Below are positions 24,743 to 33,433 of a DNA stretch of 33,500 nt, piece after piece. The notes beneath the pieces were generated by a model. It worked only from the letters and a program-made list of their open reading frames with translations. It had not been told where the DNA came from and searched no databases. Made by a program: the position numbers and the translations under genes. Origin of the DNA: Anaerolineales bacterium (lineage in GTDB: Bacteria > Chloroflexota > Anaerolineae > Anaerolineales > E44-bin32); assembly GCA_037382465.1 (NCBI GenBank), contig JARRPX010000016.1:1-33500 (forward strand), read 5' to 3'. Every line of letters begins with the position of its first letter. The first letter of the stretch is position 1.

Positions 24743-26176
24743 TCAATAGGCTTTGGCGAATATCGCCCGTTGATCGGCTTTTTTCCCACAGCGGATGCAG
24801 ACTCCTGTTCCGCCTTCCTGATCCAACGGGATGCAGCGGGAAGTCGCTTTTGTCTCCTCTTTGATGGCAGCTTCACAATCCGCATCCATGCACCACCACA
24901 CTTCCGCCCAACCATTCTGTACGACTTCCTTGAAGTCCTCGTAGTCATCCACCCGGTGGGTATTTTCGGCCATGAACGATTTTGCCCGTTCGAAAATCGA
25001 TTTCTGCACGTCGTCCAGCAATTCCGCCACCGCGTGCGCCAGATTCTCCTGCGGAACCACCTGTTTTCCTTCTCTGCCCGGACGATCCCGGCGCGCAAGC
25101 GCAACCGTCCCCTTCTCGACGTCCTTCGGGCCGATTTCGACGCGCACGGGTACGCCGCGCAGTTCCCAATCGTTGAATTTGAAACCGGGTGTTATCCCTT
25201 CGCGATCGTCCAATTTCACCCGGAAATCCCCCAATTGACCTTGCACGGCCTGGATTTGCTCCATCACCTTGCTGCGCTGCGAGTCGTCCTTGAATATCGG
25301 CACGATGACGACCTGATAGGGCGCCAGGCGCGGCGGTAAAATCAGACCTTGATCGTCTCCGTGGACCATGATGATGGCCCCGACGAAGCGCGTCGAAAGC
25401 CCCCAAGACGTCGTCCAACAATACTGCAGGTTGTTGTCCTGATCGAGATAACGGATTTCAAAGGCACGCGAGAAGTTGTCGCCCAGATTGTGGGACGTCC
25501 CGGCTTGAAGCGCACGCGTGTCTCCCATCATCGCTTCGATGCTGTAGGAATGCAGCGCGCCGGCGAATTTCTCACTTTCGCTTTTCCTTCCCTTAATTAC
25601 GGGAACGGCGGCTTCGTTCTCGGCAAAATCGGCGTATACATCGAGCATGCGCAGCGTCTCTTCTTCGGCCTCCTTGGGCGTAGCGTGGGCCGTATGCCCT
25701 TCCTGCCAATAAAATTCCGTCGTCCGCAGGAAAAGCTTCGTGCGCAGTTCCCAACGAACCACGCTGTTCCACACGTTGATCAGGACGGGCAAATCCCGAT
25801 AGGACTTGATCCATTTGGCATACATGTGACCGATGATCGTCTCCGATGTCGGGCGAACGACGAGAGGCTCTTCCAATTCTTCACCACCGCCGATGGTTAC
25901 GACGGCCAACTCGGGCGAAAAACCCTCGACGTGTTCGCGTTCCCGCTCGAGAAAGCTTTTCGGAATGAGCAGCGGAAACGCGGCGTTAACGTGACCGGTG
26001 GCTTTGAAGCGTGAGTCAAGCGCTGCTGTGATGTTCTCCCACAGCGTCCATCCATAGGGCCGCACGACCATACAACCGCGCACGGGAGCATAATCCGCCA
26101 ATTCCGATTGCAAAACCAGACGGTTGTACCACTCAGCAAAATTTTCAGAACGGGAAGGTAATTGGTCTTTTGCCAT
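24743..26176 (-). CDS. proS: Proline--tRNA ligase, archaeal/eukaryotic type
   Basis: A 477-residue class II aminoacyl-tRNA synthetase charging tRNA(Pro). It lacks the editing domain inserted in the longer bacterial type and has the extra C-terminal domain of the archaeal/eukaryotic type. Landmarks are the start NFAEWYNRLVLQSELADYAP, motif 2 around LRTKLFLRTTEFYWQEGHTA, the GDTRALQAGTSHNLGDNF active-site segment near 228-245, and the C-terminal cysteines (WWCMDADCEAAI, then GVCIRCGKKA), which bind zinc in this type. The protein ends in AKAY, where a terminal tyrosine is normal. The ATG at 26176 follows AGAGGAAC. The 146 bases upstream show no T-box. It lies in a run with the APH-fold and metallophosphoesterase genes. 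Confidence 0.95.
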   Translation of the reverse strand: MAKDQLPSRSENFAEWYNRLVLQSELADYAPVRGCMVVRPYGWTLWENITAALDSRFKATGHVNAAFPLLIPKSFLEREREHVEGFSPELAVVTIGGGEELEEPLVVRPTSETIIGHMYAKWIKSYRDLPVLINVWNSVVRWELRTKLFLRTTEFYWQEGHTAHATPKEAEEETLRMLDVYADFAENEAAVPVIKGRKSESEKFAGALHSYSIEAMMGDTRALQAGTSHNLGDNFSRAFEIRYLDQDNNLQYCWTTSWGLSTRFVGAIIMVHGDDQGLILPPRLAPYQVVIVPIFKDDSQRSKVMEQIQAVQGQLGDFRVKLDDREGITPGFKFNDWELRGVPVRVEIGPKDVEKGTVALARRDRPGREGKQVVPQENLAHAVAELLDDVQKSIFERAKSFMAENTHRVDDYEDFKEVVQNGWAEVWWCMDADCEAAIKEETKATSRCIPLDQEGGTGVCIRCGKKADQRAIFAKAY

Positions 26177-26322: not shown

Positions 26323-27402
26323 CTACAGCCTTCGCGCTACGGCCTCCGCAACGGGATGCAGCCACACTTCGTCGAGCTGCTCGGCGCGGGCTTCGAGCAG
26401 CGATTCCGGAGACGCGGCCAGCAGGTCGACCCACTCTTGAAGAAAACGCCACATCAGCGCATGATCCCACAAGACCGCCCACTCTTCGTCGTCCCAATGG
26501 GCACCGCATTGTTTTTCCAGACCTTGGCGATACCAGGCGACGATTTCCTCCTGATCCGTCGGCAGGGGATCGAACCACCAGACGCTTTTATTCACGAAAA
26601 GCAGCAGGTCCATGATCCCTGCGCCCACGGAAGCCAACTGCCAATCGTAAACGATCTGGCGTCCATCTTCCAGGATGGCAATGTTCCCCGGCCAGTAATC
26701 GCCGTGCAGGAGCGTAGCCGGTTCCTGCCGCAGCGGGGAAATCACCCGGTCGGCGTTCTTGGTCAAGGCGCTTAGCAGCTGCATCCTTTCTTGAACGCCG
26801 ATTAACAGTTCGGGTTCGCCCTGGCGGAGCGCGCGTTCGATTGCTTTCTCCGCTGCGGCCATGTGAACTTCGAAATCCGCAGACAGCGGCCGGCCCAGCC
26901 AGGGGAAGGCGTCGAAATCGCTTCCCAACCCCCAAAAACGATCGTGCAAATCAACCAGCGCTTCGATCGCCTTGCGGTAATCCGCCTTACGCCAATCCTG
27001 CGGTTCTCTCACGGACTCGAAGGCCTGCATCAGCAGCCAGTCGCCTACCGGCGACGCGGCGATCAAACGCGGCACCTCGATGGGAAAATGATCCGCCAGG
27101 GATTGATAGACGCCCACTTCCCGCCGCCCTGCGCCTGCCAGTCCCGTGCGGGTGGTGCCGCGCGGTTCCTTGACGACGAGACGGCACGTGTTTGTTTCAT
27201 CGCCCAGGAAGTATTCCACCTCCAGGGCGCGCAATCGGCCGATGGCCGGCCTGCGCGACGGCATGGGTAAAGGCGTCACACGGCCGATGGTCACAGAAGT
27301 GTCTTCGAGCATCCGGCGCATGCCAGCCGTAAGGGCCGCAAGGCTGAACGGCCACTTCCACTCTCCGGCGTTTTGCTCGCGCAAATTCCTTTCTCTCTTC
27401 AC
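26323..27402 (-). CDS. APH/choline kinase-fold phosphotransferase
   Basis: A 359-residue protein with the protein-kinase-like fold of aminoglycoside and choline phosphotransferases. The catalytic loop is HGDYWPGN at residues 233-240, the metal-binding aspartate is Asp253 in VYDWQ, and Lys78 in LVVKEP is the likely ATP-binding lysine. The members phosphorylate hydroxyl groups on small molecules; a true antibiotic-resistance role is not indicated, because the neighbours are housekeeping genes and similarity to known resistance enzymes is only at the motif level. The start is GTG at 27402, with GGAAGG further upstream; other in-frame starts are possible. It lies 57 bases after the metallophosphoesterase gene. 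Confidence 0.8.
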   Translation of the reverse strand: MKRERNLREQNAGEWKWPFSLAALTAGMRRMLEDTSVTIGRVTPLPMPSRRPAIGRLRALEVEYFLGDETNTCRLVVKEPRGTTRTGLAGAGRREVGVYQSLADHFPIEVPRLIAASPVGDWLLMQAFESVREPQDWRKADYRKAIEALVDLHDRFWGLGSDFDAFPWLGRPLSADFEVHMAAAEKAIERALRQGEPELLIGVQERMQLLSALTKNADRVISPLRQEPATLLHGDYWPGNIAILEDGRQIVYDWQLASVGAGIMDLLLFVNKSVWWFDPLPTDQEEIVAWYRQGLEKQCGAHWDDEEWAVLWDHALMWRFLQEWVDLLAASPESLLEARAEQLDEVWLHPVAEAVARRL

Positions 27403-27459: not shown

Positions 27460-28074
27460 TCAAGCACGCGGCTGAAGCAAAGTCACGGTGCGAGCGGGAA
27501 ACACATTGATGATCCGGCAGCCCAGATATTCCGTCTCCGCGACCTGGATGTTCTGCAGAATGTGAGTGTGACCATGCAGCATCAAACGCGGCCGGAACCA
27601 TTGGATCAGGCGCAGGAAGACGCGAAAACCCGTGTGCGCCACATCTCTTGCATCGTGAATTCCCCACGCCGGCGAGTGCGTAACCAACACATCCAGAGCT
27701 CGGCCATAACGCATACGGTTGTACAGCAATCGAGGCAGCAATCGGGTTACACGCAAATTCATGTCGAACTCCGTATACTGATGTTTGCCTCGATTCTTGT
27801 AGCGCTGGCTGCCGCCCAATCCCATGATCCAGTACCCGCAAACGTTGACGATGCGTCCGTCGATATTGATTCCGCCCGGAACGATGTATTGATCTGGATC
27901 GTGATTCCCGGGAACGTAGACCAGCGGCGCCGGCAGCATGGTAACGATGTATTCCAGGTATGCCGCCGGTAAATCGCCACAGCCGACGATCAAATCTACG
28001 TCCGCGGAGCTTTTCTTTATCGCAGGACCGTAAATGTGAGATACGACGTTGTCACTCAACGCCAGGATACGCAT
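27460..28074 (-). CDS. Calcineurin-like metallophosphoesterase
   Basis: A 204-residue metal-dependent phosphoesterase. All motifs of the fold are visible: Asp8 in LALSDN, GCGDLP with Asp34, GNHD at residues 56-59, THSPAWG with His133, and HGHTH at 167-171. The first motif lacks the usual D-x-H histidine and reads SDNVVSHIYG, a form found in a subgroup of uncharacterised bacterial members. The substrate could be a cyclic nucleotide, a phosphoprotein or a nucleotide sugar. The ATG at 28074 has only a weak site (GGGCG). It may be expressed from the promoter at 28396-28424 if transcription passes the terminator at 28261-28297. Confidence 0.88.
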   Translation of the reverse strand: MRILALSDNVVSHIYGPAIKKSSADVDLIVGCGDLPAAYLEYIVTMLPAPLVYVPGNHDPDQYIVPGGINIDGRIVNVCGYWIMGLGGSQRYKNRGKHQYTEFDMNLRVTRLLPRLLYNRMRYGRALDVLVTHSPAWGIHDARDVAHTGFRVFLRLIQWFRPRLMLHGHTHILQNIQVAETEYLGCRIINVFPARTVTLLQPRA

Positions 28075-28260
28075 CGTCGCCCATTACGATCGTGTTCGAT
28101 AGCGTGAGTCTTGGTGATCAGCTCTCGATTCAATTTTCACACGCCCTGTGCAGAAAGCGCTGCACGCACTGCGCACGTTCCGCGGCTGAAACAGAAATTC
28201 CTGGTAGACAGGAAGTCGATTTTCGTTCGGGCAGCAACCAAACGCTGCGCCGATTAGAGA
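28075..28260 (-). other. Spacer between candidate small RNA and metallophosphoesterase gene
   Basis: About 186 bases without a convincing gene. A short stem, TTCCTG/CAGGAA, near 28196-28212 is followed by TTTCTGTTTC on the minus strand, and GTGCAG/CTGCAC near 28147-28164 forms a second small hairpin. I see no clear promoter for the downstream gene here. Confidence 0.4.
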
Positions 28261-28297
28261 GAAATGAAAAGCGGCTTCCCTGCGATCTGGAAAGCCG
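28261..28297 (-). terminator. Intrinsic terminator of candidate small RNA / leader
   Basis: On the minus strand CGGCTTTCC (28297-28289) pairs with GGGAAGCCG (28280-28272), a 9-bp stem with one G-U pair and an 8-base loop, followed by CTTTTCATTTC. It lies about 95 bases after the predicted start point and 190 bases before the next gene. Confidence 0.75.
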
Positions 28298-28389
28298 AAC
28301 TTCAGAGGTGATGTCCGCGATGCTTCTACCAGACCAATTGCTCCTGGCTATTTATCTTCCGCAGGGGATGGGACATCGACCAAGTGCAT
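28262..28389 (-). ncRNA. Candidate structured RNA, about 128 nt (small RNA or attenuating leader)
   Basis: The stretch has its own near-consensus promoter (28396-28424) and an intrinsic terminator (28261-28297), and no reading frame of note. The predicted transcript has a closing stem in which GGTC-GATGTCC (28381-28371) pairs with GGACATC-ACC (28316-28307), 10 pairs with one bulge. This encloses a domain with a CCAG/CTGG hairpin, and the terminator follows 10 bases later. This layout, aptamer-like domain then terminator, fits a riboswitch or attenuator for the downstream metallophosphoesterase operon. A free-standing small RNA is equally possible. I compared it by eye with SAM, c-di-GMP, cobalamin, TPP, FMN, SRP and 6S RNAs without a match. 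Confidence 0.55.
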
Positions 28390-28424
28390 AAACGAATTAT
28401 AATTTATGCGCTTGGGGAAGTCAA
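28381..28424 (-). promoter_or_regulatory. Near-consensus promoter overlapped by an operator-like palindrome
   Basis: TTGACT (28424-28419) and TATAAT (28401-28396) on the minus strand are 17 bases apart. A 12-base inverted repeat, CAAGTGCATAAA (28381-28392) and TTTATGCGCTTG (28403-28414) with one mismatch, is centred exactly on the -10 hexamer. Its place would allow a dimeric regulator to block the polymerase. The promoter lies 53 bases after the metK stop codon; an oligo-T stretch at 28423-28428 precedes it. Confidence 0.75.
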
Positions 28425-29751: not shown

Positions 29752-29786
29752 CGATCATCAAGGTGAGCCTCCTCTCATCTCTCAGA

Positions 29787-29886
29787 CACTCTGTCTGGCG
29801 GAATTTGCACCACACCCGTGGTCCGTCAACGGGCAGGTTGCCGAGGTTTCACAGGGCCGTTCCCTCCACCTCTCTGGATAAGAGTG
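29787..29886 (-). promoter_or_regulatory. SAM-I (S-box) riboswitch aptamer upstream of metK
   Basis: The minus strand shows the S-box landmarks in order: CACTCTTATCCAGAGAGG, GTGGAGGGAACGGCCC, TGTGAAACCTCGGCAACC and GGTGCAAATTCC, then a closing strand AGAGTG (29792-29787) pairing with CACTCT (29886-29881) to form P1. When SAM is bound, P1 forms and the terminator at 29716-29751 stops transcription. The leader would begin near 29908. The call rests on several conserved blocks in the right order next to metK. Confidence 0.95.
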
Positions 29887-30679: not shown

Positions 30680-33433
30680 ATGAGTACCATGTCGAAAGAA
30701 ACCTCGAATAAACGTGCCTTGCGCCTCGAGCCGCGAGTAGGGTTCGTAGTCGTTCTTCTGATCGCCGCTGCGCTGATGTGTTTCACACTCGACGCGGCCA
30801 TTGCGCAGAGCGGACAAGGGGCAAACGTGCGCGGCACAATCGTCACAGCCGAGGACGATTCGCCGATTGCGTTCGCCGAAGTCTCCATCCCACTCCTCGG
30901 GTTATCGACGCAATCGGATAACACCGGACGCTTCCACTTCAACAACATCGAACTTTCCGAAACATTCGTACCGGCGACGATCACCGTGCGCGCAGTGGGA
31001 TACGGCGATTGGACCATCCAGGGCGTGCGCCTGATCGCCGGCGATACCTTGATCCTCAACGTCGAATTGCGCGATGAACCCCAAATCATCGCCGTGCCGC
31101 AAGCGCCTATAGACCGGCCAGACCTGGCTGAAAGCACGCAGGGCGCTCGGCGCGAGATCACCCCCGGTTTCGACGAAACCTGGTATCCCATACCGACGAC
31201 GATCCAGGTGCGGATCACGGGCTATGCCTATTGCGATCTTTCACGACCCTACACCGTAGAAACCATCGATTTCAAGGATTACGCCAAGCACGTCCTGCCC
31301 AACGAGTGGAATCTTTACTGGCACGACGAATCCCTGCGCGCCGGTGCCATGGCGGTCAAAATGTACGCCTGGTCCTACATCGCCGTTGGTGGAAAATGGC
31401 CCGATGCGGACGTTTATGACAGCACCTGCGATCAGGTGTACAACCCCAACTACGAATACGAAAGCACGAATCAAGCCGTTGACGATACCTGGGACTGGCG
31501 GCTGATGCGCGGCGGTTATCTGTTCCGCACTTTTTATCGCGCTTACCTCAGTATGTGTCCCCCCGAAATCGACGGGGAATGTATGGGCCAGTACGAATCA
31601 CGCGACCTGGCCGAGGCCGGGGAACCCTGGGATAAAATCGTCCTCAGCTTCTACGAAATGGGCGAGGTCTTGCTCATGTTGCCGATCGAAGGCGGCTACT
31701 CCATGCGCTTCTACGGCAGGATTGATGACGATCTTCTGGAACTCCCCGCCGACGATGACGGCGATCGGCTGAAAGTCCCCGTCGACGATCCCAGCAACAG
31801 CGATCCCGGTCCACCCGCGGATATCGGCGACACGGATTTCACCATCGAATGGTGGCTGAAAGCCCGACCGGGCGACAACGCCGCTGAACCACAAGAGCCG
31901 ATCTACGAGAATTGGACGCTCGGTAACATCATCCTCGATCGCAGTGTTTTCTACGATGATGGAATTGGCGAATATGGCGTGTCGCTGCAAGGCGGCCGCA
32001 TCGCCTTCGGAACCAGGAACGGCATCCCCTACGAAAGTCATACCATCCTCGGCAACATCGTCGTCACCGACGGCGCCTGGCATCACGTGGCCGTCACACG
32101 CAGCCTCGACGGTTGGATGCAGATCTTCGTCGACGGCCAACTGGACACGGCCGATCAAGGCCCGGTCGGCGATATCAGCTATACGGATGATCACATCGCC
32201 TATCACGTCAACGACCCCTATCTGGTAATCGGCGCCGAGAAGTTCGACCAGAGCACGCGGCTGGACTTCGACGGCTGGTTGGACGAGATGCGCTTCTCCT
32301 CGGTCGTACGCTACACCGAGAATTTCACCCCGCCGAACGCGCCTTACACAACAGACGCTGATACAGTCATCATCTTTCACTTCGATGAAGGTGAAGGGGA
32401 CGACGTTCACGATTTTTCGGAGCACCCCGACGGACCCAGCGACGCGCTGCGCTACCTCGGCGATCGGCCTGCGGGACCGCAGTGGTCGATCGATTCGCCG
32501 CCGGCCTGGTACGTACCGCCGCCCACACCGACGCCCACACCTACCTCCACAGCGACGGCGACAATCGCCGGTTCAACCACTGCTACGGCGACATCGACTT
32601 CAACTCCGACGGCTACTGCAACCCCAACTTCGAGTGCAACCGCCACCGTGACGGCGTCACCAACAGCGACTTCGACAGCAACTCCAACCACAACTGGAAC
32701 CGCAACCGCGACACCTGACGGAAGTGCGACGAACACTGCCACACCTACTAACACGCCTAATGAAACTTCGACCGCGACTGCCACGCCAACCGACACCGCA
32801 ACGCCCACGACCACGGCCACACCGACCAACACGCCCACCGCAGCGCCCACCGCCATCTTCGAAGACGTCCCCTACGGTCATTGGGCCTTCGACTACATCA
32901 ACGCCCTCTACAACGCAGGCTACGTCGCCGGTTGTTCGTCCGAACCGCTGCTGTATTGCCCGGACAACACTATGAGCCGCGCCGAGGCAGCCGTCTTCGT
33001 TGAACGCGGCATCAAGGATCTCTCTTTCTTTCCTGACGATCCAACGACTCAACTCTTCGATGACGTACCACTAGATAATTGGGCCGCGAAATGGGTCACT
33101 GTCTTGTGGGAGGATGGTTATACCGCTGGCTGCAGCCTTACGCCTCCGCTCTACTGCCCCTGGCAAGGGAATACACGTGCAGAAGGTTCGGTGTTCTTCT
33201 TGAAAATGCTGTTTGGGAGAGATTTCATGCCCGAGCAGCCTACCGTTCAGCGCTTCGCGGACGTCCCAATCGATATGTGGTATGCGAAGTGGGTTCATGC
33301 CGCAGATGATGCCGGATTATTGCCTCCTTGTGAGATGAGCCCCGAGTTGATGTTTTGCCCGGATATTCCACTTACGCGTGATTGGTCTGCCTACATGATG
33401 GTCCAGGCCAAGGGCGGTCTGCCGCTGGAGTAG
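30680..33433 (+). CDS. Secreted SpoIID-LamG-SLH multidomain surface protein
   Basis: A 917-residue protein with an N-terminal hydrophobic segment (about 20-43) that should act as a signal peptide. Domains follow in order. A carboxypeptidase-regulatory-like beta sandwich spans 47-131. A SpoIID/LytB-type domain spans about 172-345, with [11 protein letters not shown] giving the putative catalytic Glu209 and [17 protein letters not shown] as its signature helix. A LamG/concanavalin-like domain spans about 383-600 ([27 protein letters not shown]). A 110-residue Thr/Pro/Ala linker (613-725) leads to three SLH repeats (727-778, 792-845, 858-912) with SRAE and TRAE motifs; the third is degenerate (TRDW). 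SpoIID proteins cleave peptidoglycan and SLH domains bind cell-wall polymers, so this is probably a surface-bound wall or carbohydrate enzyme. The ATG at 30680 has no clear ribosome site; 30689 is the alternative. Confidence 0.88.
32516..32853 (+). repeat. Low-complexity Thr/Pro/Ala linker-coding tract
   Basis: Within the surface-protein gene, about 340 bases of ACN, CCN and GCN codons encode the linker between the LamG and SLH parts. Such tracts are prone to length change by slippage and are often O-glycosylated in secreted proteins. Third positions vary, so the tract is an imperfect rather than exact repeat. Confidence 0.85.

Follow-up and report, generated by a model that had tools for sequence, protein, structure and literature searches.

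The window, that is, the whole stretch of 33,500 nucleotides that was analysed, comes from an Anaerolineales bacterium whose genome is placed among Chloroflexota MAGs, and carries on its minus strand metK, a spacer and, further downstream, genes for a metallophosphoesterase, an APH-type kinase and prolyl-tRNA synthetase (ProRS), with a HEAT-like gene as well. A sequence-only reading had placed in this spacer, between metK and a metallophosphoesterase operon, an unassigned structured RNA that had a promoter and a terminator of its own. That reading described the flanking genes correctly, but the only gene that stays constant downstream of the element is proS and not the metallophosphoesterase operon as such. 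The gene metK is itself preceded by a SAM-I riboswitch (RF00162, 84.7 bits, 29772-29884, minus strand), with which the terminator at 29751-29727 belongs. The features of the locus are as follows.

29718-28477, minus strand: metK, upstream of the leader
28396-28424, minus strand: sigma-70-type leader promoter, TTGACT (28424-28419), 17-nt spacer and TATAAT (28401-28396); 11 of 12 positions match the consensus; location conserved among family relatives
28348-28389, minus strand: leader ORF MHLVDVPSPAEDK*, ATG 6 nt past the -10 box, Pro at codons 7 and 9; relatives keep the start spacing, the frame and the Pro codons
28371-28381, minus strand: closing stem, 5' arm GGU.GAUGUCC with the first Pro codon at its end, from the minimum-energy fold
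28322-28337, minus strand: predicted antiterminator strand UUGGUCUGGUAGAAGC, with the TCTGG motif that is the stop site of the relatives' ORFs; pairs with 28295-28283
28307-28316, minus strand: closing stem, 3' arm GGACAUCACC, from the minimum-energy fold
28283-28295, minus strand: GCUUUCCAGAUCG, predicted partner of the antiterminator strand, shared in part with the terminator 5' arm; from conserved pairing and the predicted antiterminator fold
28272-28297, minus strand: intrinsic terminator, 9-bp stem followed by CTTTTCATTT, with a short U-run; kept in relatives
27460-28074, minus strand: calcineurin-like metallophosphoesterase (Pfam PF00149), first gene after the leader in the window
26323-27402, minus strand: APH-type phosphotransferase (kinase; Pfam PF01636), second gene
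24743-26176, minus strand: proS, prolyl-tRNA synthetase (NCBIfam TIGR00408 above cut-off, and synteny), constant partner of the element

Both the promoter and the 9-bp terminator with its U-run (28297-28272) claimed by the sequence-only reading are borne out, and they enclose a leader of roughly 100 nt; in 6.1 kb there were five promoter-like sites, compared with an expectation of 2.3 in shuffled sequence. The claimed closing stem is indeed present in the minimum-energy fold, but the whole 146-nt leader folds no more stably than shuffled sequence (z -0.10, with 92 of 200 dinucleotide shuffles at least as stable), and because of this the window structure alone is unremarkable. On the window sequence alone, the finding depends on the promoter and the terminator. 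That the leader matches no known class also stood, since a search of the whole window with all Rfam families at gathering score found SAM alone and left the leader without a match, and a permissive scan of the spacer (E <= 10) gave one chance-level match outside the element core.

Direct DNA search of 101 relatives returned mostly chance matches of 16-30 bases, and one weak match (G022), lying in the right spacer, prompted a comparison based on synteny. The plasmid search gave no match to the element, viral contigs held only distant phosphoesterases and a scan of public genome contigs added few family members. Within the family the gene order metK, element, mazG, phosphoesterase, APH kinase, proS and HEAT-like gene is widely kept, and the spacers share TTGAC-17/18-TATAAT, an ATG 6 or 7 bases further on, a C-rich stretch, the motif CTGGTCTGG and the terminator CGGCTTCCCAGAT..GGAAGCCG, whose U-run adjoins the start codon of the next gene. 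The suggestion of an attenuator was right in kind; what is conserved is a promoter-leader-terminator unit adjoining that gene. The strict pattern TTGAC-N18-TATAAT-N6-ATG has 12 matches in 27 family genomes, with 10 of these at this operon and two others (G010, G021) unrelated to it; three family members (G017, G009 and G010) contain proS with no recognisable element.

The conserved ATG opens a short reading frame, starting in the window at 28389, and the earlier statement that no protein is encoded was overturned by the conservation of this frame in relatives. ATG-started family leader peptides are MFSSVNPDPCPPKGTCPRRWSG, MLFIVIPVPCPPTRTCLFCWSG, MISILYPAPAPNTETCITRWSG, MESGMSKLPFPPCPPRSACWPG and MMFRKQSPRMPPYQRGECRSG, and GTG-started ones are MLATRMPSPEPKMAHPTWSA and MSPIRIPSPITPSPEPGLVQPFWSG*. 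Their lengths vary by whole codons and the stop lies on or beside the TCTGG motif; between the motifs the sequence diverges freely, while reading frame, start and stop are kept. A single conserved aptamer, also considered, was dropped in favour of the leader ORF. The window ORF ends at codon 14, as compared to 17-25 codons in relatives, and beyond the Pro codons it is out of frame. Published work describes leaderless genes with a TAtaaT signal in Chloroflexi (PMC3160421). In the DNA of the relatives, other genes included, the TATAAT-to-ATG distance peaks at 6-7 nt, and since this peak fits leaderless starts, the leader ATG is probably also the transcript start.

Rearranged operons show which gene the element stays with. 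In G015, G014 and G003 it precedes APH-proS without mazG or phosphoesterase, and the idea that it serves either of these two was dropped because it stands before APH-proS or proS lacking both. A first covariance model, built from 12 family elements, was run on 400 genomes from the order and located further copies in a second family, f11 (E-values of the covariance models built here are rough). Here proS lies downstream in 66 of 71 loci and is directly the next gene in some. Judged by this linkage, proS is the downstream gene shared throughout, with phosphoesterase and mazG coming and going. In genus g13 (6 genomes) there is no proS of this kind, and the model search gave no element above chance.

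The f11 loci yielded 74 leader ORFs with 69 distinct peptides of 17-25 codons, for example MLMNPNPSPRMCKSSRSG and MIAQNPSPAPRWQTSWSG, from a search that allowed starts only 5-10 nt past a -10-like hexamer and preferred SG or PG ends; a separate search without the end preference gave the same picture. All 74 contain at least two Pro residues and 73 contain Pro-x-Pro, with Pro-Pro in only 3, and nearly always they end in SG-stop, coded TCT GGN, on the TCTGG motif. A point against proline-codon attenuation, the reading proposed below, is that f11 shows frequent CCN triplets in each of the three frames; within the Pro codons, positions 1 and 2 are nearly fixed and position 3 is variable.

The stop site has a second predicted role. 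In the family, CTGGTCTGGnTGAGGC is complementary to GCTTC-CCAGATCGG in the terminator 5' half over 14 pairs, and 84% of the cells of this antiterminator are paired; shifting the partner by 1-3 columns lowers this to 34-67%. In f11, the paired share is 95% of cells for TCTGG:CCAGA with its neighbours and 90% for a stem GAACC:GGUUC that joins the first Pro codon with bases after the stop and lies at the place corresponding to the closing stem of the window. The sequence of the closing stem is not conserved in the family. From this conserved complementarity, antiterminator and terminator are predicted to be mutually exclusive. An antiterminator had been part of the sequence-only reading and was right in kind, but its proposed pairing of GGAAG (near 28358) with CTTTCC is weaker than that of UUGGUCUGG..GAAGC (28337-28322) with GCUUUCCAGAUCG (28295-28283), which is the pairing conserved in relatives. 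It had also proposed a covariance model and a look for compensatory changes in the closing stem: the element proved to be conserved in relatives and the model could be built. For the antiterminator, covariation is weak, with no excess over shuffled letters in the family (449/500) and a modest one in f11 (7/500), a weakness explained by motifs that are nearly invariant. A first automatic count of antiterminator extension pairs had mis-picked the sites (p 0.10) and was discarded as support.

How ribosome position might select between the two folds was modelled by masking the ribosome footprint on an RNA that extends just beyond the CCAGA segment. A ribosome stalled at codons where Pro occurs gives an antiterminator probability of 0.84-0.95, which drops to 0.2 six codons before the stop and to 0 nearer the stop; this amounts to consistency and not proof, because the mask by itself forces the value of zero at the stop. 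In f11 and most family members the stop is placed for a terminating ribosome to cover the antiterminator strand, and in the window copy it is not.

Comparison among relatives thus brings together a conserved promoter, start codon, reading frame and Pro codons, two predicted exclusive pairings and linkage to proS. We consider the element to be, with a probability of about 0.8, a ribosome-mediated attenuator that acts on transcription of the proS operon through proline codons in a leaderless ORF; the start of transcription, translation, stalling and the direction of the response are what we infer. Transcription would begin at or beside the ATG, and therefore translation of the leader ORF would proceed with no Shine-Dalgarno leader; the sensor would be its Pro codons, arranged in most members as Pro-x-Pro-x-Pro. 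When Pro-tRNAPro is plentiful, the ribosome would reach the stop codon and cover the TGGTCTGG..GAGGC segment, allowing the CGGCTTCCC/GGGAAGCCG hairpin to form and transcription to stop short of the structural genes. Under a shortage of Pro-tRNAPro the ribosome would stall on the Pro codons and leave this segment free to pair with CCAGATCGG and GCTTC of the terminator 5' arm, and antitermination would carry transcription into mazG (where present), the metallophosphoesterase, the APH gene and proS. The modelled geometry is that of classical attenuation, in which the stalled ribosome frees the antiterminator and the terminating ribosome hides it.

The window copy departs from this scheme at one point. 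Because the ORF stops at codon 14, a ribosome terminating there would leave the antiterminator segment uncovered, and in the mask model the antiterminator can form at every ribosome position of the shortened ORF, with no ribosome dependence. Read-through is therefore predicted to be more or less constitutive, unless the contig carries an indel. The copy may be a decayed relic in which the frame is broken, mazG is gone and regulation is lost, a reading that we regard as a serious contender, if somewhat less probable than its opposite. It would account for the early stop, for the predicted ribosome-independent antitermination and for a genome without mazG: the mazG-like NTP pyrophosphohydrolase gene of relatives is missing at 28075-28266 (minus strand), no match to it was found elsewhere in the genome at 1e-15, and alignment of this 190-nt gap revealed no mazG remnant better than shuffles. 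However, the copy has kept its promoter, start codon, Pro codons, antiterminator and terminator intact, the element scores as a full-length member in the covariance model, and one contig error would look alike. Another copy, L294 of f11 (genome G283), has a leader frame that runs beyond the usual stop and resembles the frame loss of the window. Because of this similar break, contig error and real decay are both possible, and the window copy would be either decoupled or the bearer of a contig indel.

Beyond the two families, a second covariance model, built from both and run on 396 genomes of the class, revealed more Pro leaders before mazG-phosphoesterase or proS (MFSVNPLPTPAPSPLDHLSG, MFIVYPLPRPFPIKLDVLSG and MMLGFPLPCPIPRSFPAPGSG), of which the MMLGFPLPCPIPRSFPAPGSG leader is SD-led and lies 32 nt before proS. 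The same model found Lys-rich leaders before homocitrate synthase and one Arg-rich leader before argC (genes assigned by NCBIfam equivalogs). Its matches in a further family, f64 (L352, L353, L355, L360, L362, L367), were discarded as artefacts made up of a coding gene's 3' end and its terminator. Scans unselected for composition gave 12 Lys leaders with 3-5 Lys each upstream of homocitrate synthase, for example VDSLSALLAKQSKSKKPDLWSG, and 10 leaders upstream of argC, 9 of them with 2-4 Arg, for example MMILHVLPRSPRLQPDLMSG. A loose TCTGG/CCAGA pattern in 20 genomes gave mostly chance matches, and among them one leader with RRSR before argG and one with KRR before lysW/lysX (gene names by eye). 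Lys cassettes before homocitrate synthase, and one before lysW/lysX, were recorded in other Anaerolineae families (L402-L431, L357, L364, L368, L370, L396), and Arg cassettes (L432-L449, L359, L369, L382) before argC and in one case argG.

The match between sensor residue and operon exceeded that of every label shuffle (p <= 5e-5, with related genomes weighted in full) and offers the strongest indirect evidence that the ORF, and not an aptamer, would be the sensor. On balance it seems probable, with less assurance than the attenuator reading itself, that Anaerolineae own one modular attenuator cassette reused for several amino acids and reprogrammed by codon swap. Its parts would be interchangeable sensor codons, an (often PD..)SG-stop end doubling as antiterminator strand and a CCAGA terminator, and it would serve proS with Pro codons, the aminoadipate lysine pathway with Lys codons and arg genes with Arg codons.

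Other readings of the conserved unit fare less well. Sensing of proline-dependent slow elongation, as under low EF-P activity, or of a nascent-peptide signal in place of tRNAPro charging would suit the Pro-rich peptides, the presence of Pro-Pro in 7 of 12 family leaders and the known slowing of ribosomes at proline codons (PMC8129111), but it is improbable given that the f11 leaders favour Pro-x-Pro (73 of 74) and only 3 have Pro-Pro, the EF-P motif, and that the parallel cassettes carry Lys and Arg before operons making those amino acids. Even less likely is a metabolite-binding riboswitch of an undescribed class, with the conserved bases as its aptamer, as the sequence-only reading had entertained. 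Closing stem, inner hairpin and terminator do lie within one leader of about 130 nt, next to a metK that has its own SAM-I riboswitch; however, Rfam 15 gave no match to a described aptamer, the closing stem sequence is unconserved in the family, and the core is a short ORF whose frame, start and stop persist through freely diverging sequence and whose sensor codons become Lys or Arg when the operon changes. The stand-alone small RNA that the same reading had offered, compatible with a promoter-terminator gap of about 100 nt and a terminated transcript of about 120 nt, is the least credible of all, since the core is a short ORF, the U-run adjoins the next gene's start codon in relatives and the element tracks proS, the constant downstream gene, through operon rearrangements; a released leader RNA may be a by-product.

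Ribosome-mediated attenuation is a well-known mechanism, and the element shares with the classical leader-peptide attenuators (trp, his, pheST type) a short ORF carrying codons for the amino acid of the operon, an antiterminator and a terminator that here are predicted to exclude each other, and a U-run before the structural genes. It differs from them in an ATG at the predicted transcript start (leaderless), a proS target with proline codons, an Anaerolineae host and the predicted use of the ORF's own SG-stop end as antiterminator strand. A leaderless start is also used for translation of Sinorhizobium peTrpL, an attenuator leader peptide that differs in sensing tryptophan, in belonging to another phylum and in having no common sequence. 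It is the leader peptide of the trp attenuator (PMC7298713). In Salmonella, mgtP and the mgtA-leader ORF contain proline codons and sense charged tRNAPro (PMC3641672); the likeness of these short proline-rich leader ORFs is in working only, since they control magnesium transport and virulence genes, are unrelated in sequence and are not leaderless, mgtP having a Shine-Dalgarno-like sequence (PMC3641672). T-box riboswitches likewise place synthetase genes under tRNA-charging control via a terminator, whereas sensing here would proceed through ORF translation, and the window has no match to RF00230. Attenuation of aminoacyl-tRNA operons was the subject of a comparative study by Lopatovskaya et al. 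2010 (as cited in PMC4833913). A literature search, with subscription journals mostly outside its coverage, found no report of a leader-peptide attenuator for Anaerolineae/Chloroflexi or for prolyl-tRNA synthetase, and Rfam has no model for this element.

If the proposed reading is true, ProRS would be under proline-charging control by a leaderless leader ORF in at least two families of one order, and with the Lys and Arg versions conservation would be class-wide. An annotation rule, namely a short ORF ending in SG-stop on TCTGG and followed by a CCAGA terminator, would then find amino-acid-controlled operons in uncultured Chloroflexota, and evolutionary re-targeting of one attenuator scaffold by codon change alone would become testable.

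Two further observations concern the window. A 13-bp inverted repeat, CCAAGTGCATAAA / TTTATGCGCTTGG (28380-28415, 12 of 13 positions complementary, 10-nt spacer), is centred on the leader -10 box and is operator-like in appearance; no such repeat was seen by eye in the promoters of relatives. On the plus strand, 30680-33433 encodes a 917-aa protein with SpoIID and laminin-G-like domains and a long Thr/Pro/Ala-rich linker.
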